From a virus, in IMG/VR virus record IMGVR_UViG_3300027708_000222, positions 1 to 31,802 of that record: 31,802 nucleotides of DNA; one strand, written 5' to 3'. The notes beneath the pieces were generated by a model. It saw only the letters and a program-made list of their open reading frames with translations. It did not search any database and was not told the DNA's origin. Shown one piece after another: positions 1-17,472 of this stretch (position 1 is the first letter of the stretch; each line of letters opens with the position of its first letter). The position numbers and the translations under genes are program-made.

Positions 1-40
1 CCATTTAGGGCGTTAAGCCGCCAATGTAGGATGCAGTAAG

Positions 41-120
41 TTAGGGTTTTTGCGGCTTTCCACCTAACAGCTAATAACTGCCAAATACAGCCCTGTTGTT
101 TTTTTGCAACTTAGGGTTTT
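41..120. repeat. Direct repeat TTAGGGTTTT, two copies upstream of the rightward promoter
   Basis: The 10-mer TTAGGGTTTT occurs at 41-50 and 111-120, a 70-bp period, with a partial copy (TTTAGGG) at 4-10. The 208 bp before the first gene hold no ORF that I can support, so this is a regulatory or spacer region. The repeats end 16 bp upstream of the -35 box at 137. They could be protein-binding sites or leftover duplications. The function is unknown. Confidence 0.4.
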
Positions 121-136
121 CCTTAGATAAAATGTC

Positions 137-165
137 TTGACAATGTTAAGCTAGCTTAATATACT
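137..165 (+). promoter_or_regulatory. Strong sigma70-type promoter for the rightward gene block
   Basis: A perfect -35 box, TTGACA (137-142), is followed by a 17-bp spacer and a -10 box, TATACT (160-165, five of six consensus bases). Transcription should start near 172. A small inverted repeat, ACTCC/GGAGT (172-176 and 182-186), sits at the start of the leader. The first start codon is at 209, preceded by a strong ribosome site, AAAGGAG. The promoter reads away from the leftward late genes, so it probably drives an early or regulatory set (209-1517). Confidence 0.8.
146..159. promoter_or_regulatory. Candidate operator: perfect 14-bp palindrome in the promoter spacer
   Basis: TTAAGCTAGCTTAA is its own reverse complement and fills the spacer between the -35 and -10 boxes almost exactly, ending one base before the -10. 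A dimeric repressor bound there would block RNA polymerase. The sequence shows the palindrome and its position. Repressor binding is inferred, and the cognate protein is unknown. The winged-helix protein encoded at 857-1183 in the same transcript is one candidate for autoregulation. Confidence 0.55.
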
Positions 166-208
166 GTAGTTACTCCATTGGGGAGTGAAATAGAAAAAGG
201 AGCAACAA

Positions 209-451
209 ATGAAATACAAATTAAACATAAACCGTGATGTTGATGCAGATGGCGATGCTTATATGCTTTGGTTACCATTTGGGTTTAGATTTTCAGATGA
301 TCTAGTTCATGTGCGTGGTTTTGACACCATTGCCGAAATACGCCAAGCCGCTAAAAACGATGTTATTTCTTGTGATTGTAATGATTGCAAACTTAATTCA
401 GAACAATTAAAAGCAAAAGAAAAAGCGTTTTTTAAAGAAATGTTGAAATAA
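209..451 (+). CDS. Small hypothetical phage protein with a CDCNDC cysteine cluster
   Basis: This is an 80-aa acidic protein that I do not recognise. Its start is well supported: the ATG at 209 follows AAAGGAG with 6 nt spacing and is the first gene after the strong promoter at 137-165. The C-terminal third has three clustered cysteines (residues 55-60, CDCNDC) followed by a charged, probably helical tail rich in Lys and Glu. The cysteine cluster could bind metal, but a single cluster of three Cys is weak evidence. There is no signal peptide or membrane segment. The reverse-strand ORF over the same bases (307-531) looks like a shadow. Confidence 0.75.
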   Translation: MKYKLNINRDVDADGDAYMLWLPFGFRFSDDLVHVRGFDTIAEIRQAAKNDVISCDCNDCKLNSEQLKAKEKAFFKEMLK

Positions 452-460
452 TTAATTAAC

Positions 461-529
461 GGCAGGCCATCGACACTATTCAGCTTTATGGCCCTTAGGG
501 ATTTCAAACTAAAAAGACTTTGGCCTGCC
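461..529 (+). repeat. Perfect 9-bp inverted repeat in the leader of the secreted-protein gene
   Basis: GGCAGGCCA at 461-469 and TGGCCTGCC at 521-529 are exact reverse complements separated by 51 nt. The region between the genes ending at 451 and starting at 549 is otherwise non-coding. As RNA it could form a GC-rich stem closing a 51-nt loop just upstream of the 549 start codon. No U-tract follows, so it does not look like an intrinsic terminator. It could be a translation-control or RNA-stability element. Confidence 0.5.
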
Positions 530-548
530 ACTTTACTAAGGAATCAAA

Positions 549-860
549 ATGAAAGACTTTATCGGAAGTTGTTTACTTGGGGCTTTGCTAGGTGCTATGT
601 TTGCATACGGTGTACCAGCTAAAGCGCAAACTTATCCTGTTACTAGTCCAATGGGCTACAACATGGGTACGGTTCAAATTAACGGCAATACAGCCCAGTT
701 TGTGAACTCAGCAGGGGTGACTACTCAAACTGCCACAATCTACCCAAATCAGGTTATTATCACCAGCCCTAGCGGTTATACACAAAGCGTTGTTGGTAAT
801 GCTGGTTACACAGTACCGCCTAGCCCACCAACATCATCAAGCCCACGGGTGCTGCAATGA
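549..860 (+). CDS. Small secreted (periplasmic) protein of unknown function
   Basis: This 103-aa protein starts with a clear Sec-type signal peptide: basic start (MKD), a hydrophobic stretch (about residues 5-20), then Ala-Lys-Ala before a likely cleavage at residues 26-27. The mature part is short, rich in Thr, Ser, Gln, Asn and Pro, with repeated PxG(Y) turns and a Pro/Ser tail. There is no lipobox Cys at the cleavage site. It lies in the rightward block and overlaps the next gene by ATGA at 857-860. An exported phage protein in a non-structural operon could act at the host envelope, for example in exclusion or infected-cell surface change, but that is inference. Confidence 0.75.
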   Translation: MKDFIGSCLLGALLGAMFAYGVPAKAQTYPVTSPMGYNMGTVQINGNTAQFVNSAGVTTQTATIYPNQVIITSPSGYTQSVVGNAGYTVPPSPPTSSSPRVLQ

Positions 861-1183
861 AACAAATGACCGATTACGAAATGGCTAAAAACGGTGATTA
901 TATAATTAATTATGATCCGTACACAAAAGCCAGAAATAGCGATCCATACACATCGCATCTGGCAGCCAATTCAATAAACCCGTCAGCCCATTACGCTTTA
1001 ATTATTGATGCTTTAAAAGTTTCATCAGCAGGCAAGACTTTAATTGCTAAAAGATCAGGATTGCATCACGGCCAAGTAGCAAGACGATTAAATGAATTAG
1101 AAAAACAAGGAATTATTAGTTTAACTGGCAAAACTGTTAAAAGCGATTCAAACCGCCAAGAAAGGGAATGGTATTTATTATGA
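857..1183 (+). CDS. Winged helix-turn-helix DNA-binding protein
   Basis: This 108-aa protein has a C-terminal half that reads as a winged HTH. A helix around residues 44-55 leads to an HTH-like segment (about 58-84, with TLIAKRSGLHHGQVARRLNE and LEKQGII), then a beta wing and a C-terminal strand ending EWYLL. The layout resembles MarR/ArsR-like phage regulators. The N-terminal about 40 residues are polar with no domain I recognise. The start overlaps the previous stop (ATGA), indicating translational coupling. It could bind the palindrome at 146-159 or another phage promoter. The fold is fairly clear from the pattern, the target is unknown. Confidence 0.8.
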   Translation: MKQMTDYEMAKNGDYIINYDPYTKARNSDPYTSHLAANSINPSAHYALIIDALKVSSAGKTLIAKRSGLHHGQVARRLNELEKQGIISLTGKTVKSDSNRQEREWYLL

Positions 1184-1332
1184 ACGCAAATGAACTAGCT
1201 GATAAGTTGGAACAAGGTCATTGGGAAGGTGGCACAAGAGAACAAGCAGCAATCATGCTACGCAAGCAACAAGCAGAAATAGAGCATTTAAAAGAACTAT
1301 TTGAAAAAGCAATGAGGATGATAGAAAAATGA
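1180..1332 (+). CDS. Small helical (coiled-coil) protein, 50 aa
   Basis: This short ORF (MNANELADKLEQ...) begins in an ATGA overlap with the previous gene at 1180-1183 and ends in an ATGA overlap with the next at 1329-1332. That perfect chaining on both sides is the main evidence that it is translated. The protein is highly charged and should be one or two helices, with a heptad-like C-terminal half from about residue 28. There are no catalytic motifs. Similar N-terminal patterns (ELADxLExxH) occur in small phage proteins of unknown function. Confidence 0.7.
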   Translation: MNANELADKLEQGHWEGGTREQAAIMLRKQQAEIEHLKELFEKAMRMIEK

Positions 1333-1517
1333 GTACAAGATCACGGGGCATGGTTGGTAAAAGCTATAAAACGGCTTCTGAGGCTTTTAAAGATGCTGAG
1401 TATGCTAGTGCCATAGAAAGACCGCAAGAAGGCGAATACGACATATTTTGGGGGCTTATGGGGGCTTTATTGTTTGTAGGTGTATTTGCCTACAGCTTTT
1501 GGAGAACTTTAGGCTAA
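1329..1517 (+). CDS. Small single-pass membrane protein
   Basis: This 62-aa protein has a polar N-terminus of about 37 residues and one hydrophobic segment (about residues 40-58, from IFWGLMGALL to SFW), so it is probably anchored in the inner membrane. It is coupled to the previous gene by an ATGA overlap and is the last gene of the rightward block. Its 3' end overlaps the convergent HNH gene by 9 nt, and I see no intrinsic terminator between them. The function is unknown. Confidence 0.7.
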   Translation: MSTRSRGMVGKSYKTASEAFKDAEYASAIERPQEGEYDIFWGLMGALLFVGVFAYSFWRTLG

Positions 1518-1961
1518 AGCGTTAAAACTAATGCCCTTTTGTAAATTTTGTTTGGCTGGAATTACTTGCAAATTGCTAGGCGTATGTAGTCCCGATACAA
1601 ATTTACCATGCAAAGGAATTATATGATCTACATGGTGCAATTCCCCCGTTAATTTGGTCAAAATATTGGCTAATTTGTATTGGGTTTCCATGCGTTCTAA
1701 ATGAATTGCAGTAAGCCAATTAGGAGTTCTTTGTTTTTTGCCTGTTTTACGCTTTTTGCTTAATGCGTTTACTTTTGCTGGATTTTTCTTTTTGTAATCA
1801 AGTTGATATTGCTTAATTTGTTCTTTATTAATTTTGTAATATTCAGCAGTTTTTTTCCGTTCTTGTTTTTGATTAGCTAAACGCCATGCCTTTTTATATT
1901 CTCGCAAAATTTTACGGTTTTTTGCCCTATATTCAGCAAAATATTCTTTAGAGCTACCCAT
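1509..1961 (-). CDS. HNH endonuclease, freestanding
   Basis: This 150-aa protein has a very basic N-terminal half (Lys/Arg/Tyr/Gln-rich, residues 1-75), probably DNA-binding, and a C-terminal HNH nuclease core. The core shows HHVDHIIPL (about residues 108-116), then SGLHTPSNLQVIP and the final Asn/Lys-rich segment, matching the H-N-H pattern with His and Asn ligands. It overlaps the endolysin start by 8 nt and ends the late leftward transcript. In phages, such genes are often freestanding homing endonucleases or packaging-associated HNH nucleases. Its distance from terminase favours a homing-type selfish gene. A link with the ORF-less intron at 15190-15424 is possible but unproven. Confidence 0.85.
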   Translation of the reverse strand: MGSSKEYFAEYRAKNRKILREYKKAWRLANQKQERKKTAEYYKINKEQIKQYQLDYKKKNPAKVNALSKKRKTGKKQRTPNWLTAIHLERMETQYKLANILTKLTGELHHVDHIIPLHGKFVSGLHTPSNLQVIPAKQNLQKGISFNALA

Positions 1962-2547
1962 TGTTTAACGCATCCAAAACTTTGTTAATTTTTACTTTTC
2001 TATCTTCTATTCCAATTAAACCGCCATTTATTCGTTTTGTCATAGTGTCTATATCCATAACATCAGATAATTGGTTTATGCTTTTTTTATTGAAAAACCA
2101 TCCTGCACTCAAAGCCGCATATTTAGGAGTAGCCAGCAGATCAGGATGACTGAGAAAATCCACACCCAAACCAAGTCCGCAGTTTGCATAATTTTCTTTG
2201 CCTGTAAGTTGTATTAAACCGCGCCCAATGTATTTACCAGCTTCTTCAGGTGTGGTGTTGCCCATCCGACCTGCATAAACTTTGCTGGCTATCTTTTCTG
2301 GGTTATGTTCGTACTTTTCAGCCGTATCCATATCAGGAAAGCGTGATGGCCATGTACGCATTAGCGCGGCAGCCGAATAGTTTAAGTTTTCTTGTAAGTT
2401 TTTAAATCCACCTGATTCGTGCATACATTGACCAATAAAACAGGCTTGACGCTTAGGCGTGTTGATCTCATACTTTTCAAAGGTTTCGTTTAACGGGTCT
2501 AACCACTTGTGATCTAAACCTAACTTGTCTAACTGCTGTGGGGTCAT
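1954..2547 (-). CDS. Endolysin, GH19 chitinase-like muramidase
   Basis: This 197-aa glycoside hydrolase of family 19 would degrade peptidoglycan at lysis. Motifs visible are the catalytic region CMHESGGFKNLQENLNYSA (about residues 41-59), with Glu44 and Glu53 spaced as in the family, and the conserved GRGLIQLTGKENY (about 108-120). A C-terminal region with WFF and KRINGG also matches GH19 lysozymes. Full length for a single-domain phage GH19 endolysin. There is no signal peptide, so release should depend on a holin. It follows Rz/Rz1 with a 4-nt overlap (2544-2547) and overlaps the HNH gene. Confidence 0.93.
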   Translation of the reverse strand: MTPQQLDKLGLDHKWLDPLNETFEKYEINTPKRQACFIGQCMHESGGFKNLQENLNYSAAALMRTWPSRFPDMDTAEKYEHNPEKIASKVYAGRMGNTTPEEAGKYIGRGLIQLTGKENYANCGLGLGVDFLSHPDLLATPKYAALSAGWFFNKKSINQLSDVMDIDTMTKRINGGLIGIEDRKVKINKVLDALNNG

Positions 2548-2942
2548 TTAATACCCATTTGCTCGTTAATCCACTTTTGTAGACTAACTATTTGCTGGGT
2601 TGTTTCAGCGCATTGTCCAGCAAGAAGGTTGTAGGCGGTGACTGCATCAAGACCGCTGGTGGCATTGGATATTGTGGGCAAGCTGCTGGAATGGGGCTGG
2701 CGCACCCCGTTAGCATAATACTGGCGCAAAAGAGCCAATTTCGCATTGTATTCATTCTCAATTCCTTTAGTAACTAAGGCTTGTTGTTTAGTGATTGACT
2801 CGACTTTTGCTTCTTGCACTTTGGCGGCAATTTCAACTGACTTCTTATATTCAACATATCGTGAATATCCCAGCCACCACCCAGAACCGAAAGCAACAGA
2901 TAGAATAGCACCAATAATTGCCAATTTAGCATAGTCAATCAT
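2544..2942 (-). CDS. i-spanin, Rz-like inner-membrane lysis protein
   Basis: This 132-aa protein has an N-terminal membrane anchor (about residues 5-26, ending in GSGWWLGY) followed by a long charged helical periplasmic region. This is the classical Rz layout. Rz links the inner membrane to the Rz1 lipoprotein and disrupts the outer membrane in the last lysis step. It overlaps both the upstream holin-like gene (2939-2942) and the downstream endolysin (2544-2547). A nested Rz1 frame at 2588-2746 confirms the assignment. Confidence 0.88.
   Translation of the reverse strand: MIDYAKLAIIGAILSVAFGSGWWLGYSRYVEYKKSVEIAAKVQEAKVESITKQQALVTKGIENEYNAKLALLRQYYANGVRQPHSSSLPTISNATSGLDAVTAYNLLAGQCAETTQQIVSLQKWINEQMGIK
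2588..2746 (-). CDS. o-spanin, Rz1-like lipoprotein nested inside Rz
   Basis: A 52-aa ORF in a different frame entirely inside the Rz gene. It starts MRNWLFCASIMLTGCASP: a short lipoprotein signal with lipobox LTGC, giving lipidation on Cys15. The mature part is short and Pro-rich (PIPAACPQYPMPP), as Rz1 proteins are. ATG is at 2746-2744 and the stop TAG at 2590-2588. Rz/Rz1 embedded architecture is well known in lambda-like phages. Mature Rz1 sits in the outer membrane and pairs with Rz across the periplasm. The ORF is below the usual length cutoff, so gene callers tend to miss it. Confidence 0.85.
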   Translation of the reverse strand: MRNWLFCASIMLTGCASPIPAACPQYPMPPAVLMQSPPTTFLLDNALKQPSK

Positions 2943-3124
2943 TCTACAGGCCCAGTAGTGATAAAGCGCAATACAGCAGTAATAATACCAATCCCAACCA
3001 AAAGTATTCCATAGTATTTATCGCTAATGACCGATTGTAAGTAAGAAAAGTTATCAAAAATTGCGCCAAAGACAACAAGTAACAACGAAAACCACATTGT
3101 CTTGCTTTGGTACGACTTTTTCAT
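2939..3124 (-). CDS. Holin-like small membrane protein
   Basis: With the ATG at 3124 this is a 61-aa protein (MKKSYQSKTMWFS...) with two hydrophobic segments (about residues 10-30 and 37-55) separated by a short polar loop. That is the size and layout of a two-segment holin. I chose this start because it overlaps the upstream stop as ATGA (3121-3124). The longer frame from a TTG at 3196 would overlap the neighbour by 76 nt and adds an implausible Cys-rich extension. Its position between another small membrane protein and Rz supports a role in forming the lysis hole. Confidence 0.75.
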   Translation of the reverse strand: MKKSYQSKTMWFSLLLVVFGAIFDNFSYLQSVISDKYYGILLVGIGIITAVLRFITTGPVE

Positions 3125-3327
3125 TTTGTGCTGATGTAGTGGGAAACAAACCCAACAAATGTAGAAAGAGCAGAAACAATAGCCATGCCTGCCCAAAAAC
3201 CACCACGACCTTTATTAGCCAATTCTAATAATTGCTCCATGCCATGCTCTAGCTTATCTATTTTCTTTTCCATAGCGTCTACTTGCGCTACGAGTTGGCC
3301 ATACTGAAAAAGGTCGATGTCGGACAT
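3121..3327 (-). CDS. Small coiled-coil membrane protein of the lysis cassette
   Basis: This 68-aa protein has a charged helical N-terminal part (residues 10-40, with VDAMEKKIDKLEHGMEQLLEL in heptads) and a C-terminal membrane segment (about 44-62). The layout resembles XhlA-type haemolysin/holin accessory proteins. It precedes the holin-like gene with an ATGA overlap. It could be a second holin, an antiholin or a holin partner. The sequence does not settle which. Confidence 0.7.
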   Translation of the reverse strand: MSDIDLFQYGQLVAQVDAMEKKIDKLEHGMEQLLELANKGRGGFWAGMAIVSALSTFVGFVSHYISTK

Positions 3328-3328
3328 A

Positions 3329-3541
3329 TTATCCTACCAAGGCTTTAACTTCATCAGCCGTTAGACCAAGTGCAGTTAGTTTAGCTAGTGCTGATTCTTT
3401 AGCAGTTGTTTGTGCTTGTTCTAATGCAATTTGAGCAGCATCAGCAGCTTGTCCTGCGGCTAATTCCTCAGCAGTAAATGGAGTAATTGTTTGGGTTATT
3501 TCACCAGTAATAACATCTACATTAATTTGAATTTTATCCAT
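3329..3541 (-). CDS. Small tail-fibre-associated protein, Ala/Gln-rich helix
   Basis: This 70-aa protein begins with a strand-rich segment (IQINVDVITGEITQTITPFT, residues 4-23), then an Ala/Gln/Glu-rich helix and a short HTH-like end (LGLTADEVKALVG). The segment VDxxTGExxxxxxTxEE followed by a coiled Ala/Gln region recurs in small genes beside tail fibres (XkdW-like or tail-assembly-chaperone-like). It sits between the receptor-binding cluster and the lysis cassette. It is probably a virion-associated or fibre-assembly protein. Confidence in function is low. Confidence 0.65.
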   Translation of the reverse strand: MDKIQINVDVITGEITQTITPFTAEELAAGQAADAAQIALEQAQTTAKESALAKLTALGLTADEVKALVG

Positions 3542-3544
3542 GAT

Positions 3545-4159
3545 TTACTCGTAAAGAATGTTAATAGAACCAGCAGTAAAAGTGTCTGTGCCGTTGGATG
3601 TAGTAATGACAACCCTATCTAATATTCCTGAAAGAGTTATTTGACCGACTGTGGTAAAACTTCTAGCAATTGATGATGTTGCACCATTATAAGAACAAAT
3701 CCAAACATTGCTTCCTAAAGTAGTCAATACCATGCTCCCGCTAATTACATACGCAGAAGATTGAGAGTTACCAGTAATATTAAATCCATTAGAAATATTA
3801 GTTCCACCATAAGTAGGAGTAGAGCCATCAACTACAGTTGCAGCACCTAAATAACCACTTGTAGTAGCAGAACCAGAACCTAATTGTGCAATAGGAATAG
3901 ATGTGGAACTTGTAGAAACACTTTTAAACATTACAGTAATCCGCTTTACCCAACTAGGAATGCCTGTAAAAGTAATGCTTGTACCGCTTGTAGAAGCCTG
4001 TGCAGTACCGCTAACAATCTTTGCTACAGATGACCAACTTGTGCCATTGGTAGTAAATGGAATATTGCCTGTTGTAGTAGGATTTGGAGAAGCAGTAGTT
4101 TGCGTAGTAGCATCACTAAAAGTTACTGAAGGGCTATCGCCACTAATTATTGCGCTCAT
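3545..4159 (-). CDS. Tail fibre / receptor-binding protein, paralogue of 5234-5839
   Basis: This 204-aa protein is Ser/Thr/Gly-rich and beta-predicted. Its C-terminal about 160 residues align with those of the protein encoded at 5234-5839: both contain GTAQASTSGTSI followed by FTGIPSWVKRITVMF, and both end with NGTDTF, one residue, AGSINILYE. The middle is variable, as expected of a host-contact surface. The start at 4159 forms an ATGA overlap with the upstream gene. It is probably a tip domain of a short fibre or an alternative adhesin. The duplication in one fibre cluster suggests diversification of host range. Confidence 0.75.
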   Translation of the reverse strand: MSAIISGDSPSVTFSDATTQTTASPNPTTTGNIPFTTNGTSWSSVAKIVSGTAQASTSGTSITFTGIPSWVKRITVMFKSVSTSSTSIPIAQLGSGSATTSGYLGAATVVDGSTPTYGGTNISNGFNITGNSQSSAYVISGSMVLTTLGSNVWICSYNGATSSIARSFTTVGQITLSGILDRVVITTSNGTDTFTAGSINILYE

Positions 4160-4317
4160 ACTGTCACCTCATCTGCTGGTAATGGTTGATTTCCAGCGTC
4201 TACCCATTCAAGGTAGGTTTGGTAGTCTGTGTTGGCTGGGTCAAATGGTATTGATGCGTTATCAGATAAACGAATAACATCTTGACCGCCTAAAGGTAAA
4301 TTTTGTAATTTATACAT
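4156..4317 (-). CDS. Small tail-fibre-linked protein, 53 aa
   Basis: This short protein begins MYKLQNLPLGGQDVIRLSDN and contains IPFDPANTDYQTYLEWVDAG. This motif (PxDxxNxDYxxYLxWxxxGN) recurs in small genes and domains next to phage tail fibres. I chose the ATG at 4317, two bases after the upstream stop ends at 4320, rather than a start at 4392 inside the neighbour. It overlaps the next gene by ATGA. It may be a fibre-assembly factor or fibre-bound protein. Confidence 0.7.
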   Translation of the reverse strand: MYKLQNLPLGGQDVIRLSDNASIPFDPANTDYQTYLEWVDAGNQPLPADEVTV

Positions 4318-4319
4318 TT

Positions 4320-5225
4320 TTATAGCTCCGAAGAAGCAGACCAAGAAGAATTTGATTGCACGCTGTTTACTGTTGTTTGGTAAACTCCACAAACATCATT
4401 TGGTGTTGCAAGGTTTGTTAAAACACCGCCTGTACCAGCGTTAATAGTTATAGATGTTAATGTTGGTGCGGCTCTTTTGGTTATTTTGTAATAGCCACTT
4501 CTTAAAAGATTTGTAGCGTCTAAAATAAAACCAAATATTTCAAAATAGCGTTGGCAGTTAGCTAATTGAGTTTGATAGTTGTTGTATTCATATCCAGTAG
4601 CAAAGCTACCTGTTTCTAATTGAACTAATCCTAATTGCCATGTACCGCTAGTTTGTGCGCCAACAGTAAAGACAATTTCAATACCAGTAGTTGCTGCTGC
4701 TGGAATAGTAATCTGTGCGTTATATTGCGTTAGCGTAGAAGTTACAGTAAATGTACCTGTAGCAATCTGGGTGCGTGTAGGACTAGCTAAAGAACCAAAG
4801 GTATCTGTAGTATTGGCGTAATATGCTGTCCAAGTTACTGATGTTAAAAGACTGTTTGCAATATAAGCAGATAAAGTTGCTGTAGAGCCAGCCATATCAT
4901 AAGAATTGACTGCTTCAATACGCTGACCTACTCCAATAGCAGTTACGCTTGCTGCGCCTGTAAATTGTAGTAAGTTGCGGTTATTTCCTGAGCCAGCTAC
5001 TTGTGCCATTGTCACATTCGCACCAGTACAGTAGCCATAAAATCTATCTACTGTTGCATAGTTTAAAGCTGCTGCTGCTGTAATTGTTGCAGATGTAGCC
5101 CTTTGTGCAATGTACATATCGCCATTAATTAGGCGATTTTTCATTAGGGTAGCGTTACCTGCTCCTAAGTTACTGTTTGCTACGCTTGTACCGATTACAT
5201 CGGCTAAAACTTGACCGTATGCCAT
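4320..5225 (-). CDS. Tail fibre / carbohydrate-binding receptor protein
   Basis: This 301-aa beta-rich protein carries a pattern seen in many phage tail fibres: a start of about 30 residues, then RLINGDMYIAQRAT and a TVDRFYGY segment (residues 32-65), a jelly-roll-like middle, then QLETGSFATGYE and CQRYFE (about residues 205-231). This INGDM...QLExGxxAT...CQRY(F/Y) layout is typical of receptor-binding domains on the fibre. It lies in a run of four fibre genes with little spacing. The exact receptor is unknown. Confidence 0.8.
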   Translation of the reverse strand: MAYGQVLADVIGTSVANSNLGAGNATLMKNRLINGDMYIAQRATSATITAAAALNYATVDRFYGYCTGANVTMAQVAGSGNNRNLLQFTGAASVTAIGVGQRIEAVNSYDMAGSTATLSAYIANSLLTSVTWTAYYANTTDTFGSLASPTRTQIATGTFTVTSTLTQYNAQITIPAAATTGIEIVFTVGAQTSGTWQLGLVQLETGSFATGYEYNNYQTQLANCQRYFEIFGFILDATNLLRSGYYKITKRAAPTLTSITINAGTGGVLTNLATPNDVCGVYQTTVNSVQSNSSWSASSEL

Positions 5226-5233
5226 TATTTATC

Positions 5234-5839
5234 CTATTCGTACAAGATGTTAATTGAGCCAGCATCAAAGGTGTCTGTGCCATTGCCAGTTATTCTGACA
5301 ATAGACAATGTTCCAGCTAATGATTTTGAACCACTTATTAAGTAACTATACGCAAAATCTCCAGCTCTCGATAATGCGCCTTGAGCTGTCCAAATATTGC
5401 CCGTTGCATTTAATAATGTTAAAACTACTGAGCCTTGATATGTGGCAGCAGAAGCACTATTACCTGATAATAAAATATTTGTTGTAGAATTTGTATTTAC
5501 TACAGTTGAACCTAAAATACTAGCAGCATTAGAAACATATCCAGTAGATTCAACTCCAGCAACAGGGCCAATAAGAATATTTGGTGAGCTTGTTCCACTT
5601 AATGAAACACCATTAAACATCACAGTAATGCGTTTAACCCAACTAGGAATACCAGTAAAGTCAATACTTGTACCGCTAGTAGAAGCCTGTGCAGTACCAG
5701 CAGTAATAGCACTATTTTGACCTGAAATAACAGCAGTTCCAGTTAAAGCTGGAATAGTAACTGTATTAGTACCAGCTACAGCAGGGACTGTTACGGTAAC
5801 TGTACCGCTTGTATCGCCAGAAAGAACCATTGAACTCAT
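5234..5839 (-). CDS. Tail fibre / receptor-binding protein, paralogue of 3545-4159
   Basis: This 201-aa protein starts MSSMVLSGDTSGTVTVTVPA, an N-terminal strand motif common in phage fibre and appendage proteins. Its C-terminal part is a paralogue of the 3545-4159 product (shared GIPSWVKRITVMF and end AGSINILYE). I place the start at 5839, where ATGA overlaps the upstream stop; an in-frame ATG four codons earlier (5851) is also possible. Low-complexity Ser/Thr/Asn sequence suggests a trimeric beta structure. Confidence 0.75.
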   Translation of the reverse strand: MSSMVLSGDTSGTVTVTVPAVAGTNTVTIPALTGTAVISGQNSAITAGTAQASTSGTSIDFTGIPSWVKRITVMFNGVSLSGTSSPNILIGPVAGVESTGYVSNAASILGSTVVNTNSTTNILLSGNSASAATYQGSVVLTLLNATGNIWTAQGALSRAGDFAYSYLISGSKSLAGTLSIVRITGNGTDTFDAGSINILYE

Positions 5840-6417
5840 AAAATCACCCATCTCTGTCCACTTGGGACTGTTACGGTAGCACCTGAATTAACAGTAATAG
5901 GGCCAACAGATTCAGCCGATTTACCTGTAGAAAGCGTATAACTTGTTGTTACAATTCTTGCGTTTTCTACAAATACCTGATTACCACCACCACCTGTTGC
6001 GCCACCACCAATATTACCCCATGCTCCATTAGCATAACCTTCAAAACTATTATAATCGGAGTTATAGCGAATTTCACCATTTACAGGTACAGCAGGTCTT
6101 TGAGCGGTAGTTCCGCTAGGAATAAGCACATATCCTGTGCTAGACATTGTGACATTACCAGTAAAAACAGGGGTAGTGAACTGTGCAAACTCAACAGCAT
6201 CACCAGAAGCAGTAGCCGTACCCATTCCTGTAACTTTATTGCCGCCCATCTTAAGTGCGCCAGTAATTGTAGTTTGACCATCAGCCGCAACAGATTGGGT
6301 AAGAGCGTTCTGAATGTCTGAAAGGGTTGAATTAGCCCATGTAGACGATATAGTTGTGCCAGTTACTACTGGGTTACCTGCTGGGAGCGAATAAACTCCC
6401 GATCCGTTTCTACTCAT
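5836..6417 (-). CDS. Tail fibre attachment protein
   Basis: This 193-aa protein starts with MSRNGSGVYSLPAGNPVVTG and continues SSTWANSTLSDI, an N-terminal signature of podovirus tail fibres that probably attaches to the tail. The middle contains repeats of the MGGNKVTGMGTATASGDAV type, typical of fibre shafts, then a Gly-rich hinge (GGGATGGGGN, about residues 137-146). The end, VNSGATVTVPSGQRWVIL, matches the end of the 60-aa protein at 19213-19395. It is the first gene of the fibre cluster and may be the adaptor onto which the following proteins dock. Confidence 0.8.
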   Translation of the reverse strand: MSRNGSGVYSLPAGNPVVTGTTISSTWANSTLSDIQNALTQSVAADGQTTITGALKMGGNKVTGMGTATASGDAVEFAQFTTPVFTGNVTMSSTGYVLIPSGTTAQRPAVPVNGEIRYNSDYNSFEGYANGAWGNIGGGATGGGGNQVFVENARIVTTSYTLSTGKSAESVGPITVNSGATVTVPSGQRWVIL

Positions 6418-6426
6418 AATATGTCC

Positions 6427-8298
6427 TTATTCCGCTGCCGTACCAGCAGATTGCATTAATAACATTTTGGCTAAATTTGCCCGTTCCATTTCTTTTACTG
6501 TCTTTGCCGTCATTTTAGTGCCTTTAGGAATAGTTTTAGCTATTTCCATGTATGAAGCTGCTTGTTGAGGACTTAGCAAAGTTTGGGCAAATTGATTTGC
6601 CAATTCTTTATTAGCTTTTCCATAAACAACATCGCTTGCTCTGGCCAACAAATTACCAGCAGTTTCAGCTAAACCGCGCCTACGCAACAAATTAGGTAAA
6701 TTTATTTGATTAAGCATATTGCCATAGGCTAATTTTTGAATTGTGTCAGAACCTACACCGCGACCAGCATTTTCAGCAAATTGATTACGCGCCAAATCTT
6801 GTTTAATTGCGTTTAAAGCATTTAGCTTTTCAGGAGAAACAACATTAGGGGCAATGTTTTCTAAATTCTGTGCAAATTTACCTGCATACATTTTTTCATT
6901 TAATGGATTAATTGCTTTACTTGCAATTTCTTGAATAACATCCATTTCATTGATTGGTTTAGACATTGCAGCATAAGTTTCTCTGGCTGTTTTGTATTCA
7001 GGGCTAATATTTTTGTTTTCTAAAAAACCAATTAATCTGTCTTTAGCTGCCAACAAACCAGCCATTTTGTTCTTTTCGGCACTAGACATATCAGGCTTTT
7101 TAAGGCGATCAATTGCGTCATCTATAGCCAGTTTAGTCTGATGCAAACCTTGAATACTGCCTTTTGGGTTTTTAATATCAATACCCAAGTTTTTAGCATT
7201 AATTTGGGCTTGTTTCATTGCATCTTTAATAGCAGGAGTTTGCACCAATTGATTAACTTCTTTAGTTAATTCAGGGTTCAAAGTCATCTTTTTATTAAAA
7301 GCAGCTTTGTATAAATCTTCTGCGGCATTTTCTCTAGCTAAGCTTAAAGCCGCTCTTTCGCCTTCTGTGCCAGCCATTTGATGTAATGCAGCGGCACGGG
7401 CTTCATTATTTGCGGCTTGTCTTGCAGCCATAGTGTTGGTCGCTTCTTGAGAAACAGCGGTAGCTGATCTTTGTGCAGCGGCAAGGCTAGGAACTCCAGC
7501 AGCTTCGCCAACAGTAGGCATAGAACCTTGTACTAATTCTTTTGCAGATTTTAAATTGGCAACAGCTTTTTCTGCTTCATTACCTGCATATTCTCTTAAT
7601 GCGCGACCAATAATTTTTTCTCTGCCACCAGTATATAAAGGTTCAATTAATGATTTGCCAACATTGTAGCCAGTTTTAAGAACTCCACCAACAACAGGAA
7701 TTGCAGCACCTAAAGTTCCTTGAATAGCAATATTTTTTGCTTTTTCATCTTTATATTGTTCGGGTGTTAAACCTACTTTTTCAGGAGTTAAAACACCTGA
7801 TAACGCGCCCATTCCTGCACCTTGGGCTACTTTTTGAGCAAAACTAGGAATCATTCCTGTTGTACCCATACCCATATAAGGCGCAGCTTGACCTACAGCA
7901 CTACCAACTTGATTGACTGCACTACCAACATCACCCATTTGGGCTTGTGTGCCTGATTCAATCTGATTGATAGCATTGACCATATTATCGCCAGTATTAC
8001 CACCGCCAATGTATTTGTCGTACATTTGCATGATTGCAGCAGGGGATTTAGCAATTCCTGTAGCTATATTGATTGGCAAGCTTACTGTGCTTGTTAAAGC
8101 TTGTTGTGCCGCTTTAGTAGCACCAGTAGGGCCAGCACCATAAGATGAAGTATTTAAAGGTATGCCCTCAGGAGAATATTGAATATCCTGTGCGCTTTGG
8201 GTATACATATTGCCTTGCTCAGGTTTAGCTTGAGCCATTTTCATTTTAGCTTCAGCAATAGCTAAAGCTTGTTGTTGTTCTAATGAAAATTCAGCCAT
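6427..8298 (-). CDS. Large internal virion / ejection-like protein
   Basis: This 623-aa protein is Ala/Gln/Lys-rich and mostly helical. A Gly/Ala/Pro-rich segment (about residues 85-220) has membrane-active character, followed by long charged helices. I recognise no enzyme motif. Size, composition and its position between tail-hub genes and fibres fit the ejection proteins of podoviruses (functionally like P22 gp16/gp20 or T7 gp15/16). I used the ATG at 8298, just after the upstream stop. A TTG four codons earlier (8310) is in frame but would overlap. Confidence 0.7.
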   Translation of the reverse strand: MAEFSLEQQQALAIAEAKMKMAQAKPEQGNMYTQSAQDIQYSPEGIPLNTSSYGAGPTGATKAAQQALTSTVSLPINIATGIAKSPAAIMQMYDKYIGGGNTGDNMVNAINQIESGTQAQMGDVGSAVNQVGSAVGQAAPYMGMGTTGMIPSFAQKVAQGAGMGALSGVLTPEKVGLTPEQYKDEKAKNIAIQGTLGAAIPVVGGVLKTGYNVGKSLIEPLYTGGREKIIGRALREYAGNEAEKAVANLKSAKELVQGSMPTVGEAAGVPSLAAAQRSATAVSQEATNTMAARQAANNEARAAALHQMAGTEGERAALSLARENAAEDLYKAAFNKKMTLNPELTKEVNQLVQTPAIKDAMKQAQINAKNLGIDIKNPKGSIQGLHQTKLAIDDAIDRLKKPDMSSAEKNKMAGLLAAKDRLIGFLENKNISPEYKTARETYAAMSKPINEMDVIQEIASKAINPLNEKMYAGKFAQNLENIAPNVVSPEKLNALNAIKQDLARNQFAENAGRGVGSDTIQKLAYGNMLNQINLPNLLRRRGLAETAGNLLARASDVVYGKANKELANQFAQTLLSPQQAASYMEIAKTIPKGTKMTAKTVKEMERANLAKMLLMQSAGTAAE

Positions 8299-8299
8299 A

Positions 8300-9514
8300 T
8301 TAGCCGCCAAATAATTTGCGTTGTTCAGGGGTCATATATTGCAATAAAGCTGGATCAATTTGTGTAGATGGAGCGGCAACAGGATTTGTTGTTGGCATTA
8401 AATTACTAGGAACATTTCTTCCATGTGTTTTAAACACATTAGTAGTCATTTGATCTAATTTAGATTCCAAATTAGCAATTTGTTGCATTTGTGTCTTTTT
8501 ATCAATTAATAAAGCTTTAGGAGAATTAGGATCAGTAATCATAGAAGTCAAAATAGCATAATCATTGCCATTTAAAACACCCAATTTCATTGCTTCTTTT
8601 AATTGCAATATTGCATTTTGATAATCTGTTGCTATTAATGCCCTTTTGTTTGGATTAACCATATCAAAAGTATTAAAGTTTTTCAAATTGGTTTTAAGGT
8701 CATTTAATGCAGATTTTACATTTTGTACGCCTGTAACTTGACCAGTAGCACCTTCAGGTAAATTACTTTTACTTCCAACTACAGCTTGTCCATTTAACAT
8801 TACAGGAGTAGCTTGATTTGGATTTCTTGGATTTACAGCAACATAACCATTTGCTGTTTCAATAATTTGAGGTTTATTAGCATTTGATTGTTCAATAGCC
8901 AATCTTTGACGATCAATTTCCAGTCTTTGTTTTTCGTTTCTATCTGACCAATCTGTAAACGACAATCTTTTACCTTCAGGTGTTTCAGCTTTGTAAGCTT
9001 CATAATTAATAAGTTGATCGGTTTTCTTAGGAATCATATTACCCACAAGCGCGGCTTTATATTCTGAACCAGCACCATAAGGATTGTTAGTATTAATGGC
9101 TTTTAATGCAGCAGCCAAATCAGGTTTAGTTGCAGGTGCAACAGCCATAGGCATAGGTACATTTCCAGCATAAGGCCCAGCTAATTCTGTGGCTTTTTCA
9201 GGAGTTCCAGTTACATAATTAGTAATTTCTTCTTCTTTAGCCATTTTGCCAGCACGGATTTTTTCAGCTAATTTAGCGGCTTCTGTATCACTTTGTTTAC
9301 CAATATAAGCACCAGCAAGTTGATTGGCTACAGGGTTAAGCATTTGAAAGAAACTAGGCGCAACATAACGACCACTAATCATTTGACCTTGTGGTTGCTG
9401 TCCTTGTTGCATCAACATATCAGCAAAGCGTTGCTGACGATTGATTAATTGCTGTTGAGCATAATCTTCGGGGCTTAAAGTACCAGCTTGCATTACATTA
9501 AATTGATCTTGCAT
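8300..9514 (-). CDS. Internal virion-like structural protein
   Basis: This 404-aa protein has a Gln-rich N-terminus (residues 10-45), a helical segment containing QLAGAYIGKQSDTEAAKLAE, and C-terminal helices (about residues 265-355) ending in a Pro/Thr-rich tail with YMTPEQRKLFGG. It shows no catalytic motif. It is packed between two other structural genes with 1-2 nt spacing, and is probably a minor virion or ejection protein. I do not recognise the family. Confidence 0.7.
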   Translation of the reverse strand: MQDQFNVMQAGTLSPEDYAQQQLINRQQRFADMLMQQGQQPQGQMISGRYVAPSFFQMLNPVANQLAGAYIGKQSDTEAAKLAEKIRAGKMAKEEEITNYVTGTPEKATELAGPYAGNVPMPMAVAPATKPDLAAALKAINTNNPYGAGSEYKAALVGNMIPKKTDQLINYEAYKAETPEGKRLSFTDWSDRNEKQRLEIDRQRLAIEQSNANKPQIIETANGYVAVNPRNPNQATPVMLNGQAVVGSKSNLPEGATGQVTGVQNVKSALNDLKTNLKNFNTFDMVNPNKRALIATDYQNAILQLKEAMKLGVLNGNDYAILTSMITDPNSPKALLIDKKTQMQQIANLESKLDQMTTNVFKTHGRNVPSNLMPTTNPVAAPSTQIDPALLQYMTPEQRKLFGG

Positions 9515-9515
9515 A

Positions 9516-9869
9516 TTATTTCATCCCCAAGTCTTGAGAAGCTAACATTAAACTTTGCTCAGAATAAGGGTTTGTTCCATATTGATTAAATGCAGCCATT
9601 TGATTCCAAGGCATATAAGCACCAAATTCATTCATTTTTGCTGCATCTGCATTTGTTTGCGGTGTTTGGTTACGCAACATCTTAGCTAGATCCATAGGGT
9701 TCATGCCAGAAGAACTTTGAGGGCGTTGTTGTGGCTGTGCCATTTGGTTATTTTGTGCAAGTTGTTGATTCATATATTGTTGTTGCGCGCCAATATTTTG
9801 ATATACAGGGTTAAGACCTTGTTGGTCTTGTGACATATATGGTGGAACTTGGGTGATATAAGGGTTCAT
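9516..9869 (-). CDS. Gln/Asn/Met-rich small structural protein
   Basis: This 117-aa low-complexity protein is dominated by Gln, Asn, Met, Pro and Tyr (for example QQQYMNQQLAQNNQMAQPQQ). There are no predicted hydrophobic segments or motifs. It starts in an ATGA overlap with the S74-domain gene (9866-9869) and is followed after 1 nt by the next virion-like gene. It may be a disordered linker or an internal virion component. The function is unknown. Confidence 0.65.
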   Translation of the reverse strand: MNPYITQVPPYMSQDQQGLNPVYQNIGAQQQYMNQQLAQNNQMAQPQQRPQSSSGMNPMDLAKMLRNQTPQTNADAAKMNEFGAYMPWNQMAAFNQYGTNPYSEQSLMLASQDLGMK

Positions 9870-10924
9870 AACATTCCGTAATCTACGACTTTATAGCCGT
9901 CATCTAATGTATGTACAGCGTAAGGAAATACTTGTTCTACTTCTTGAGCCATATAACCGTAATGAACGCCATGCCCAGCCAATTCATTGTCTTTAAACTC
10001 TAGTTTGTATTCGTAACGATATACAGTCAGACCGTTATGCGCTACGCCAACAGCTTCAATGTTTTGTTTAGTGCGGCTATCAGACATAATTGCTGCCGCG
10101 CCCAAAGTGCCGCCTAATCCCATTAAACCGCTATTAAATCCAGCTTGAGCAGCGTTAGAAGCGTTTGAACTAGCAAGGTTATAGTTACCAGCAGCAGTAG
10201 TAGCACCCAATAAATCTGCACCAGCCGTAGTAGCTTGTTGCGGTGCATTAATAAATGATGGGTTTTGAACTTGTGCGCCTGTACGCAATGCACTTAAAGA
10301 GTTAAGTGGCAAATTGTAATTAGTCAATGCTTGGTTGTAAGCTTGCTGATTTGCAGCTAGACCAGTATTAAATCCTTGGGTAGTATTTGCAGCCAACAAA
10401 TCGTTTTCTTTTTGTGCTTGATTCATTTGCGCTCTGTTGTAAGCTTCAGAACCTACGGGTATACCCGAATTAGATAATTGATTTGCTAACAATTCGCGTT
10501 GTTGTGAAAGTTGTGGTGCAAGCCTTTGCATTGCAGCATCTTGATAAGTCTGACCAGCATTAATTCCGACTTGTGGCAAATTAGGATTAAATCCTTGGCC
10601 CATTGTCTTTTGAACTTGACCAAGTTGGGAATTAATTGTAGAACCTAAACCTAAACTAGCTTGGTTTTGATTGTTTAAAAGTTGTGTACCTACATCATTT
10701 AAAGCTGTAGTAGCTGTCCAAGTAGGATTTCCATAAGGATCAGAGCCAGTAATAGCATAATTTAGGTTGCCATACGGGGTAACTTGGTTTACACGATTGG
10801 CAGCAGCAGCGGCTCTTGCCGCATCTAAATTACCTTGTGCTGTAGCTTGTGCTGCACCCGTATAATCAGGCGCGGCTGGCGCACTTGGGGTATCGCCTAG
10901 TCCTAAAAATCCACCACCACCCAT
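9866..10924 (-). CDS. Virion protein with C-terminal S74 intramolecular chaperone domain
   Basis: This 352-aa protein has a Gly-rich start (MGGGGFLGLGD), an Ala/Gln/Asn-rich helical body (residues 20-275), and a C-terminal domain of about 72 residues. That domain begins SDSRTKQNIEAVG and includes GLTVYRYEYK and GYMAQEVEQVFPYAV: the peptidase S74 / endosialidase chaperone signature, with the Ser-Asp start where autocleavage normally occurs. The domain usually trimerises fibre or spike proteins. Here the body looks helical rather than beta-fibre-like, which is unusual. It may be a tail needle or internal core protein. Confidence 0.82.
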   Translation of the reverse strand: MGGGGFLGLGDTPSAPAAPDYTGAAQATAQGNLDAARAAAAANRVNQVTPYGNLNYAITGSDPYGNPTWTATTALNDVGTQLLNNQNQASLGLGSTINSQLGQVQKTMGQGFNPNLPQVGINAGQTYQDAAMQRLAPQLSQQRELLANQLSNSGIPVGSEAYNRAQMNQAQKENDLLAANTTQGFNTGLAANQQAYNQALTNYNLPLNSLSALRTGAQVQNPSFINAPQQATTAGADLLGATTAAGNYNLASSNASNAAQAGFNSGLMGLGGTLGAAAIMSDSRTKQNIEAVGVAHNGLTVYRYEYKLEFKDNELAGHGVHYGYMAQEVEQVFPYAVHTLDDGYKVVDYGML

Positions 10925-10925
10925 A

Positions 10926-11369
10926 TCATTCTCCTCTTGCTGTTCTTAAAGGGCATTTGATGTCGAGAAACCGACAATCTTCACGCCTCATAGCCATAAT
11001 CACTAAATCACCATCCATGTGAGCATAAGGGATTTCGGCTATTACTTTAAAACCAAGGTGTCGGTTTAATCTTAGGGCAGATTCATTATCTGCACAAACT
11101 TGCCCTAGTATAACGCTAACTCCAAGTTTATTAAAGGGATAATCGAAAGCCGCCCACAATAAATCTCTGCTCATCCAATTTACTTCATCTACCGCAGCTA
11201 TGTGCATTTGCACCGCTTTTGGCATAAATCCATTAAATCCTACTACTGCCACTAAATTACCGTCAATTTCCTGACCAATAGTAACTGTATCTAAGGACAT
11301 TGGGTGATTCATCATTCGAACCAGCCAATCGCCCATGTATTGTTGATTTTCAGTAGTAACCCTTCTCAC
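10926..11369 (-). CDS. GNAT-family N-acetyltransferase
   Basis: This 147-aa protein shows a GNAT core: strands around VAVVGFNGFM (about residues 39-48) and VILGQVCADNESALRLNRHLGFKVIAEIPY (about 85-114), where NESALRLNRHLGF is the acetyl-CoA-binding helix and beta-bulge region. It lies within the tail-hub genes and overlaps the P22 gp10-like gene by ATGA. Similar acetyltransferases occur in the structural modules of several podovirus-like phages. The substrate, virion or host protein, is unknown. Confidence 0.85.
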   Translation of the reverse strand: MRRVTTENQQYMGDWLVRMMNHPMSLDTVTIGQEIDGNLVAVVGFNGFMPKAVQMHIAAVDEVNWMSRDLLWAAFDYPFNKLGVSVILGQVCADNESALRLNRHLGFKVIAEIPYAHMDGDLVIMAMRREDCRFLDIKCPLRTARGE

Positions 11370-13132
11370 AGCACTCCACCACGCTCCATTACATAATCAA
11401 CTGATGCCCAATGAAAATCTATACCTTGCGATGCAACATTTAAGTTAATTGATGCTGAAAAACCTGTACCTGTCACGCCTTGCCAAAATCTTGTAGTAAT
11501 TAATCCACCACCCCAATTTGCACCATCCCATAAAGAACTATCCCATACGCCTACTGTTAAGGATGATGGGTTAAAAGCTAATTGGTTAGTAAGTGGAACG
11601 GTATCAAAATCCGTACTAATACCGCATAAAACGGTCGGTAAACCGTTATCTGTTTGGAAGATAGGTCTTACTAAAGTAAAGCGTTTAAGCTGTCCACGGC
11701 TGTCAAAATAATTGTAGGCTTGCTGGCAATTTGCAGTGATATTGGTGTTATTGTCAGAAAAACCATTAAAAAACAATCCTACATAACCGTCACCGCCAAA
11801 GTGCATATCTTGGTCACCTGATACGGTAAAACAATAAGCTTCAATTCCTGTAAAACGCGCCCATGATTTATTAATGGTATTCATGACATACTGCTCCATA
11901 CCATTATTGGTCGGAATAGATAAGATCAACATATTGGCTTCAGCTAAATAACTCATTTGCCAGCCAAAATTGGTTGAGTAGTTACTAGCTGCCAAAGAAA
12001 CCGCGTAATAAATCTTATCAGTAAGATTGATACGAGGATCAAGACGATCAGATTGCAATGCAGAAGTTAATGGCAAAAGTCCATCTTGGGTTAAAAGAAG
12101 CAGATCACCGCCCCATTTAAAAAAGCACCTACGGCTAAAGGTTTGACCAAATTGCCATAAGCCTTTCATAGCCCAATTATTAGGGTCGCTAGGATCAAAT
12201 CCTTGATAAACAAGCACTTCACCCATACTGGTTACATATACAGCAAAGTCATCTACGCCATAACCAGCATCTAAAGTCCATGTTCCCATAGCCTGTAAAT
12301 AGCCACCATTACGGAAAAATGAGCCTAATTGAAACTGAGTAGCTGCCCCTGAAATAGCTTGAACGGGCAAATACCAAAAGCTTAAACTGTTGTTTTGGCA
12401 AAAATAAAGGCGGTTTTTAAACAAATTGACATTAGAAAATGTATTGCTGTTTACGCCAGTAATGCCTGTAATTGTATAAACACCCATTACAGTAGCACTA
12501 CCACTTGGCGTTGTTGCCATAGTGTATGTAAAGGTATTAGTACCTGTTACGGTAATGACATAAGTACCGCTGTAATCAGCAGGCGTTGTTCCTGAAATAC
12601 TAACTCTATTGCCAGTAATTAAACCGTGTGGCGCAGCCGTTGTTAATGTGGCAGTTGTTCCTACCCGTGTAATTGAACTAATGGTTTGGGCAGTTTGGGT
12701 CGTTGCCATATACGCCCAAGCTGTACCGTCATAAATTAAAGCAGGATCTACTCCGTTTACCGCAATAACAAAGTTACCACCAGCGGTAGTCATATTAACA
12801 AATTGCCACTTAGAGTTAGATAACCCCGTAAATACTACTGATGCCGTAGATGTTGTAGCGTCATAAATGCTAGTACCAGCAAACGCAAACAGTTTGTAAC
12901 CTTGAGAATTGTTATATGGATAGTTAATAATCGTATTAACTTTGCCAGTAATACCTGTGCAATATTTAGTCCAACCTTTTCTAAGCTGAACATCAGTAGG
13001 GGTAGGCCAAAAATTGACCATTTCTACCGCATCTAAAGGTGGCATTTCTGCTAATGAATCTCTATTATTCCATCCCCCAATTGGGGCTGCCATTGATGTT
13101 GTAGTGGCTGTTCTAGCTTGAGCGCGAGCCAT
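11366..13132 (-). CDS. Tail-hub / DNA stabilisation protein, P22 gp10-like
   Basis: This 588-aa beta-rich protein starts with ATTTSMAAPIGGWNNRDSLA followed by DAVEMVNFWPTPTDVQLRKG, a signature of the podovirus head-closure/hub family (P22 gp10-type, beta-propeller-like). Residues about 150-217 form an inserted domain (ISSITRVGTTATLTTAAPHG through to YTMATTPSGSATVMG), an AxPHGL...G..V.I.G beta module that recurs in phage virion proteins. It follows the adaptor gene after 2 nt. It should cap the portal-adaptor complex and hold packaged DNA. Confidence 0.8.
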   Translation of the reverse strand: MARAQARTATTTSMAAPIGGWNNRDSLAEMPPLDAVEMVNFWPTPTDVQLRKGWTKYCTGITGKVNTIINYPYNNSQGYKLFAFAGTSIYDATTSTASVVFTGLSNSKWQFVNMTTAGGNFVIAVNGVDPALIYDGTAWAYMATTQTAQTISSITRVGTTATLTTAAPHGLITGNRVSISGTTPADYSGTYVITVTGTNTFTYTMATTPSGSATVMGVYTITGITGVNSNTFSNVNLFKNRLYFCQNNSLSFWYLPVQAISGAATQFQLGSFFRNGGYLQAMGTWTLDAGYGVDDFAVYVTSMGEVLVYQGFDPSDPNNWAMKGLWQFGQTFSRRCFFKWGGDLLLLTQDGLLPLTSALQSDRLDPRINLTDKIYYAVSLAASNYSTNFGWQMSYLAEANMLILSIPTNNGMEQYVMNTINKSWARFTGIEAYCFTVSGDQDMHFGGDGYVGLFFNGFSDNNTNITANCQQAYNYFDSRGQLKRFTLVRPIFQTDNGLPTVLCGISTDFDTVPLTNQLAFNPSSLTVGVWDSSLWDGANWGGGLITTRFWQGVTGTGFSASINLNVASQGIDFHWASVDYVMERGGVL

Positions 13133-13134
13133 AA

Positions 13135-14040
13135 TTATGATCCATAGCCAGTATCGGGTATGTTTGCATATCCAATTAGGACTGCACTAGGCTGTGGAGC
13201 AAATGACAGATTTGCAGAACCCTTGTCATTAGCTTTAGCAATGCTTAAATAACGCTGATAATCTTGTTGCAATGCAGTAGTGTCAAATGACTTAATTTGG
13301 AAATATTTAAGTTTTGTTGCCAATACAATTACAGTATCGTCTAATACGGTTGTATCTGTATCTGTAGTAAAGCTATTCTTTACATTGCCAGAAGCATCGC
13401 GAACAAAGCCTCTAGAACGGTATTCAAAACCTAAATATTCTTGGGTGTTATATGGTGGCCATATTTGAAATTGACCGCCCAGAATACGCCAACGCACCCG
13501 TGGGCCTGTTGAAATATAACCAGATTTGAGCCATTGCCATTGTTGGGCATCTACAGGGCCAAGCATTTGCCAATGTTTTGTTTTATCCCAATGGGTGTTA
13601 TCTGTAATCGTTTCGTAATCTGCTGGCAAATCGTAAATAGTTTTGCTAAAAGTTACTGATCCACCTACTGAAGTGGCTGAAGCTAATTGAGTAGTTACAA
13701 GTGATGTTGAATCTGTAACGGTATTGACATAAGTATCTTGTGGGATGCTTGTACCAACAATAGAATAAGTGCTGTCCAGCCCTGTGGTACTAGGAATATT
13801 TGTTAAATTATAAGAACCATTCGTTGTATCACAGGTCGTGGTTACTGCTGTTGTATAAAAACGATATTCGAGTTCTAATGCTTGCCAATCGTACTCCTTA
13901 ACCAGATCATATCCAGCACGGTTCATCAAAGCTAGGATTTGTTGCACATCCTGATTTGGATTGCCTGCTACATAGGTAGGAACGGCTAAATTGAGTTCAG
14001 CGGTTACTTGCTGGACTAATTGGAGTAGATTGTATGACAT
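13135..14040 (-). CDS. Head-tail adaptor protein, gp4-like
   Basis: This 301-aa protein has an N-terminal helical segment (MSYNLLQLVQQVTAELNL, then a helix with ILALMNRAGYDLVKEYDWQA) typical of podovirus adaptors that bind under the portal. A beta-rich insert (about residues 64-135) precedes the conserved DLPADYE (about 137-143), and later come FQIWPPYN and LGFEYRSRGFV. It sits next to the gp10-like gene, matching the head-completion gene order. The insert may reach the virion surface. Confidence 0.78.
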   Translation of the reverse strand: MSYNLLQLVQQVTAELNLAVPTYVAGNPNQDVQQILALMNRAGYDLVKEYDWQALELEYRFYTTAVTTTCDTTNGSYNLTNIPSTTGLDSTYSIVGTSIPQDTYVNTVTDSTSLVTTQLASATSVGGSVTFSKTIYDLPADYETITDNTHWDKTKHWQMLGPVDAQQWQWLKSGYISTGPRVRWRILGGQFQIWPPYNTQEYLGFEYRSRGFVRDASGNVKNSFTTDTDTTVLDDTVIVLATKLKYFQIKSFDTTALQQDYQRYLSIAKANDKGSANLSFAPQPSAVLIGYANIPDTGYGS

Positions 14041-14042
14041 AT

Positions 14043-14693: not shown

Positions 14694-14732
14694 TTTTAAA
14701 TCTCCTCAAGGTATTAAGGTAAAAAGTTAAAC

Positions 14733-14763: not shown

Positions 14764-14784
14764 TCGTTTTACTACAAAAAACTA

Positions 14785-15090: not shown

Positions 15091-15114
15091 GATAATTCCT
15101 TTCTAATCAATAGA

Positions 15115-17463: not shown

Positions 17464-17472
17464 TTAATGCTC

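Follow-up and report, generated by a model that had tools for sequence, protein, structure and literature searches.

Positions 137-165 of the virus record IMGVR_UViG_3300027708_000222, the whole of which (31,802 bases) was analysed and is called the window here, raise the question of what reads a palindrome that fills the spacer of a near-consensus promoter. The original prediction took the site for a strongly repressible early promoter, a simple switch for the rightward gene block, and named the winged-helix product of that block as a possible autoregulator. Comparison with related loci makes it highly probable that 137-165 is one promoter (promoter C) of a phage early regulon, carrying in its spacer a predicted operator for a Cro-like repressor, and the protein that docks on the palindrome is very probably a small Cro-type repressor from a gene elsewhere in the phage. 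The features on which the argument draws are the following.

110-126, unstranded: upstream imperfect palindrome CTTAGGGTTTTCCTTAG, its centre about 27.5 bp before the operator.
137-142, plus strand: -35 hexamer TTGACA, from the consensus scan and its kept position in relatives.
146-159, unstranded: operator C, TTAAG-CTAG-CTTAA, predicted Cro-like dimer site in the spacer, from arm conservation and covariation with the Cro allele.
160-165, plus strand: -10 hexamer TATACT, from the consensus scan and relatives.
172-186, plus strand: predicted 5'-terminal RNA hairpin ACUCC-AUUGG-GGAGU from the predicted +1 (A172), from stem conservation and compensatory changes.
199-202, plus strand: Shine-Dalgarno-like GGAG ahead of the ATG at 209, from reading of the sequence.
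209-451, plus strand: first operon gene, an open reading frame of 80 aa with 28 related loci in IMG/VR and no PHROGs match.
549-860, plus strand: second gene, an open reading frame of 103 aa with no PHROGs match.
857-1183, plus strand: winged-helix protein, phrog_1123, which does not track the operator.

The promoter parts could be read off the window exactly as originally predicted: TTGACA and TATACT lie 17 bp apart and match the consensus at 11 of 12 positions, and between them ATG (143-145) is followed by TTAAGCTAGCTTAA, which takes up 14 of the spacer bases. In a scan of the whole window this was the sole promoter-like site with 11/12 matches, and hence the best sigma-70 match. Promoter-like sites as a class were not enriched (44 versus 52.9 in shuffles, in a scan of bases 1-20000), and near-matches of the 14-mer in the window occurred at chance level (4 versus 4.43), so that neither observation proves much alone. 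The exact TTAAGCTAGCTTAA, for which a search of the full record had been proposed, was found there once only. As for the palindrome itself, a perfect one of 14 bp is present in 0.036% of Markov-1 random 17-mers of the window's composition, and 60 simulated windows yielded just one promoter-like site (at least 10/12) that contained it.

The relatives indicated which parts of the palindrome are kept. The TTAAG and CTTAA arms persisted while the CTAG centre varied (CTAA, ATAA, TTGG, GTGG, CTGG, CCAC and others), and the operator unit is therefore TTAAG-N4-CTTAA, two 5-bp arms with a 4-bp gap; the perfect 14-bp palindrome that had been described does exist at 146-159, but taking all of it as the unit was an over-reading. 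Promoter and palindrome recurred exactly in one further contig (locus L055, on the same contig as L033), and in the first-gene set of 28 the promoter is retained by L002 and L014, whose palindromes have the arms TTAAG and CTTAA around a different centre. At the same place relatives carry TTGACA or TTGCAT/TTGCAA as the -35 region and TATACT, TAAACT or TATTCT as the -10. Across 22 chosen records, TTAAG-N4-CTTAA occurred 33 times versus 4 for the reversed control pattern. Fifteen of these records contained the dyad; those without it were six that had been fetched with the first gene, where the upstream sequence is different, and that of L051, which has TTTAG-N4-CTAAA at sites B and C. A scan of loci L001-L055 gave up to four dyads per locus. 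In relatives the dyad lies at three predicted promoters, A, B and C, overlapping the promoter in the spacer each time; the window contains C, which in relatives sits after the exonuclease gene. It is thus likely that the rightward block has a repressible early promoter, as a spacer operator conserved at three predicted promoters and its covariation with the repressor allele (below) support this, whereas a simple switch for that block is too narrow a description, since one operator type is present at three promoters. Elsewhere in the window, at 18959-18972, a dyad of mixed half-sites, TTTAGATTGCTTAA, recurs in other records; it lies inside the open reading frame 18740-19213 and may thus reflect only coding conservation.

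A candidate reader of the dyad is encoded next to operator B, which in relatives lies between a leftward gene of 74-76 aa and a divergent rightward operon encoding a protein of 67-80 aa, then the 204-aa phrog_862 (a family without known function) and then the exonuclease-like phrog_298. The product of the leftward gene matched Pfam P22_Cro (PF14549) just below the cut-off of 30.2 bits in L041 (29.5 bits, E = 6.4e-7) and at 23.1 bits in L053, and matched YdaS more weakly. Its AlphaFold model was all helical (pLDDT 88.3), and the nearest solved folds in Foldseek were Xfaso 1 Cro, YdaS (second entry) and P22 Cro, none with E < 0.001; for 3bd1 and 1rzs the probability was 0.97-1.00, but E was 0.08-0.23 and TM 0.49-0.62. 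The model is thus consistent with an all-helical helix-turn-helix fold like that of 1rzs and 3bd1, with weak Foldseek E-values, and in relatives this small helix-turn-helix gene stands beside its predicted operators.

By alignment search the Cro-like gene was single in 14 of 15 records, the window alone being without it; these 14 had been picked since one of their loci already showed the gene, so that the count says only that the gene is single and that the window is without it. The left and right ends of the window match a relative (locus L156, record G009) at 13069 and 9487, 3.58 kb apart, and the G009 segment between these points holds operator A, the Cro-like gene, operator B and the exonuclease-like gene. 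This arrangement argues that the window contig most likely lacks a segment of about 3.6 kb with the repressor gene; with that gene outside the window, the pairing of operator and repressor is drawn from the relatives. Just ahead of the repressor ATG in L033 and L041, at a distance of 5-6 bases, a possible -10 (TAAGAT) is overlapped by a partial site, TTAAGATAGCT(T/G); this suggests that the Cro-like gene is autoregulated and its message leaderless. Between operator A and the Cro-like gene lie about 400 bases without a clear gene (L033 1540-1960, L041 1450-1820); look-alike patches occur there in both loci, and the stretch, which had no Rfam match, is a possible non-coding RNA.

In the mechanism that we propose, the P22-Cro-like repressor, encoded about 2 kb upstream of site C in relatives and within the segment missing from the window contig, would bind as a dimer with one TTAAG per half-site, cover the spacer and so block RNA polymerase at the -35 and -10. 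This repressor would also act on the rightward operon with the exonuclease-like gene through operator B, on the leftward genes through operator A, and near its own start codon. The transcript of promoter C would start at A172 with a 5'-terminal hairpin.

Natural variation in the presumed recognition helix bears on the pairing. L051 carries a divergent Cro-like allele, AVTHW for AVSMW, together with the altered sites B and C, and more loci were therefore fetched, by the exonuclease (the best 80 of 328) and by the L051 allele (22 loci). Duplicates were removed, two loci with a cut-off helix (L107 and L111) were left out, and the loci were assigned to class I (AVSMW) or class II (AVTHW). Site C had TTAAG in 48/48 class I loci and TTTAG in 13/14 of class II, and site A had TTAAG in 37/38 and TTTAG in 9/9, respectively. 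At site B, which was scored with a pattern loosened by hand, the left half in class I was TTAAG in 45 loci and TTAAC in 2 (47/48), and in class II it was TTTAG in 16/16; the right half was mixed in class II (CTAAA 5, CTTAA 4, GTTAA 7, so that 11/16 were not CTAAA). Adding L107 and L111 as class I gives 50/50 at C and 49/50 at B. In the class II exception at site C, L048, the Cro is of class II and sites A and B are of the class II type too, but C still reads TTAAG; this locus may be a natural mosaic or an assembly join. Among the remaining gaps, a perfect site A is missing from L095 (class I), and the pattern used returned no site B for L014. Rarer helices were also seen: the single AVSQW locus combines TTAAG at A and C with a TTTAG left half at B; for AVAQW, site C reads TTAAG in one locus, and neither A nor B gave a match in two loci; and AVSLW (L028) and AVYQW (L026, a weak Cro match) gave no match at B. 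Since AVSQW and AVAQW also go with a TTAAG site C, the code between helix and operator is not one-to-one.

Because of its place between Cro and site C, the exonuclease gene gives a tree that is a fair background for counting independent changes. In a quick tree of 67 rows the Cro class changed 7 times and the operator 6 times, and the pairs on supported branches were 5 in the same direction, 0 in the opposite and 1 with none (sign test, p = 0.0625). A careful tree of 64 rows (without L141, L153 and L155), run after the outcome of the quick tree was known, gave 7 and 6 changes and pairs of 6, 0 and 1 (p = 0.031), and one of 65 rows (without L107 and L111) gave 8 and 7 changes with the same pairs (6, 0 and 1; p = 0.031). 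With all five loci removed (62 rows) there were 7 and 6 changes, with 4 or 5 pairs in the same direction (about 4.7/5) and 0 opposite, and p was 0.0625-0.125. The operator appears to follow the Cro class in a constant direction, in few independent events and with weak sign tests whose p depends on the rows chosen. Taken together, sequence comparison shows that the dyad is conserved, that it occupies three promoter-like positions and that helix and operators differ in step; binding, repression, early timing and autoregulation are what we infer.

A second palindrome is conserved ahead of the promoter. Of 64 distinct upstream regions, 50 reached a score of 9/12 or more for the pattern TTAGGG-N3..6-CCCTAA (shuffled mean 3.95), and in 49 of those 50 the centre of the match lay 25-27.5 bp ahead of the operator (shuffled mean 0.22); the CTTAGGGTTTTCCTTAG palindrome is a possible candidate site for an activator or a second regulator. 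L013 and L016 have CTTAGGGTTTTCCTTAG-like sequences ahead of their first-gene homologue too, and no operator at that place. The location of this separate palindrome at about -53, where an activator could sit, together with a sign of regulation that is not readable from sequence, speaks for the view that promoter C is activated, or regulated in both directions, and not repressed by the Cro-like protein when it binds the dyad. A dimer in the spacer of a near-consensus promoter would, however, overlap RNA polymerase, and we regard this view as unlikely. Operators in promoter spacers are typically repressive.

On a rival view the winged-helix protein at 857-1183, the possible autoregulator of the original prediction, would bind the palindrome and autoregulate its own operon. 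Its gene does sit in the operon, it has weak winged-helix Pfam matches (all below the curated cut-offs), and 25 related loci were found in IMG/VR. The recognition stretch DHNQVARRLTELERNG is nevertheless identical in L041, with a TTAAG operator, and L051, with a TTTAG operator, a single comparison because, among loci whose site C is TTTAG, a homologue turned up in L051 alone. Moreover, just 13 of 47 site C loci had a homologue (12 class I, 1 class II), the 47 being all those, out of 64 distinct loci, whose sequence runs on for 2 kb or more past the site, so that most loci have the operator without a winged-helix gene nearby; the same dyad also occurs at two other promoters, beside the Cro-like gene. 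Autoregulation by the winged-helix protein was set aside on this one-pair allele comparison and the absence of the gene from most site C loci, and is quite improbable. The 80-aa first gene travels independently of the dyad in 26 of its 28 related loci, where the upstream 150 bases contain none.

The view that the palindrome is read by a regulator of the host and not by one of the phage draws on the fact that no host was found: the host search gave no relative of the exonuclease in genome contigs, and a search with the upstream-palindrome pattern returned 40 stretches over scattered phyla, about the chance estimate at that length and hence no host signal. Against it, the site changes with the phage Cro allele in 5/6 to 6/7 of the independent pairs, and such a regulator is very improbable. 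A chance palindrome in an AT-rich promoter, the reading that the unenriched promoter-like matches and the chance rate of 14-mer near-matches would allow, is scarcely credible and was rejected on the conservation of the dyad across relatives, with the dyad after the exonuclease gene in every class I locus and far in excess of the control pattern.

Besides the operator that we assign to the Cro-like repressor, a stem at the predicted transcript starts is conserved. Of 56 distinct site C leaders, 53, among them that of the window, had a stem of 4 or more pairs whose first base is an A at +1 (shuffled mean 1.7, maximum 6), as had 44 of 46 site B leaders (shuffled 0.6, maximum 4); with any first base allowed, the counts were 54/56 (shuffled 4.6, maximum 12) and 44/46 (shuffled 1.8, maximum 6), respectively. 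From the leader count L038 was omitted by hand; it is on the same contig as L066, which was kept and is stemless. The stems at C show compensating changes (ACTCC/GGAGT, ACTCG/CGAGT, ACTTC/GAAGT, ACTTT/AAAGT and ACTGC/GCAGT), those at B include the variants ACGGC, ACCCT, ACCGC and ACGTC, the second pair is C-G in all 54 (C) and 44 (B) stems, and loop length ranges from 3 to 8. Covarying stems with a fixed C-G second pair and a variable loop are more easily explained by an RNA hairpin than by a DNA dyad to which a protein binds. The window leader folds at -5.9 kcal/mol (z -1.74) and the L033 leader has z -2.49; the B leader, folded for L041 only and from one base inside the stem, was no better than its shuffles (z -0.19). 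Protection of the mRNA is probably the role of the hairpin, and the likeliest one. A candidate conserved structured intergenic RNA was also noted at 461-529 of the window, with the stem GGCAGGCCA/TGGCCTGCC. This stem occurs in 9 distinct sequences including the window, with some paired changes (for example in L051), and the fold has z -2.79 in the window and -1.60 in L051; a tenth pattern match, L109, looks like chance and was dropped. Rfam gave no match in the window, L033, L041 or L053.

The structural genes of the window include those for terminase, portal, head and tail proteins. Integrase (PF00589) and resolvase (PF00239) were each found in 0/15 records, which are 32-37 kb long and may be incomplete, so these possibly incomplete records gave no mark of a temperate phage by either gene. 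Among named phages, the DNA of window 1-3000 had no match, and the exonuclease protein matched 8 records, all under 60% identity. At least two types of Cro and operators, presumably of different specificity, have replaced each other several times. A tentative idea, which we hold to be possible but doubtful, is that the Cro-like types are immunity groups, with the lone Cro-like protein as immunity determinant in a phage group without detected lysogeny genes. If so, an incoming phage would be silenced when the resident or co-infecting phage is of its own type and not when it is of the other, which hints at immunity-like specificity in phages that gave no sign of the usual lysogeny genes. The analysis also supplies a testable regulatory map for an uncultivated phage group, with one small repressor, three spacer operators and hairpins at the predicted starts, and the exchanges of helix and operator base that nature has made repeatedly offer ready-made material on a long-standing question, how helix-turn-helix proteins read DNA.

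Among the matches listed from the open-access literature, no title or beginning of an abstract described this switch in these phages. The 5'-terminal stems resemble stabilisers of the ompA type in their position at the predicted 5' end of the transcript, and an appended 5' hairpin can stabilise mRNA and impedes RppH, according to a passage of a review (PMC3997798). They differ in that the start sites here are predicted. YdaS of the cryptic prophage CP-933P (8co2 and 8c7k) supplies the nearest PDB chains by sequence, weakly (E 0.025 and 0.038), and has in common with the Cro-like protein a C-terminal R..L.P....IWPE stretch, but its chains are 94 and 109 aa long compared with 74-76 aa here. The P22 Cro/c2 system is similar in its operator: as given for the 2R1J operator in an excerpt of PMC9976882, the P22 c2 operator CATTTAAGATATCTTAAATA contains TTAAG-N4-CTTAA, the same TTAAG half-sites 4 bp apart as at 146-159 of the window, and the regulator here resembles P22 Cro in sequence and predicted fold. 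In contrast to P22, no S24-type repressor was found (Peptidase_S24 in 0/15 records, where a CI without an S24 domain is possible), and we therefore speak of a Cro-like protein and not of a lambdoid switch; in addition, the Cro-like gene is divergent from the rightward operon, and the sites are spread over three promoters. Finally, Hall, Lefevre and Cordes (2005), as cited in an excerpt of PMC4997575, found that Cro recognition helices correlate with operator half-sites, and helix residues and operator bases likewise vary together here; whereas that work, as cited, started from lambdoid phages, the change seen here affects three promoters at once, and repeatedly, within one uncultivated phage group.
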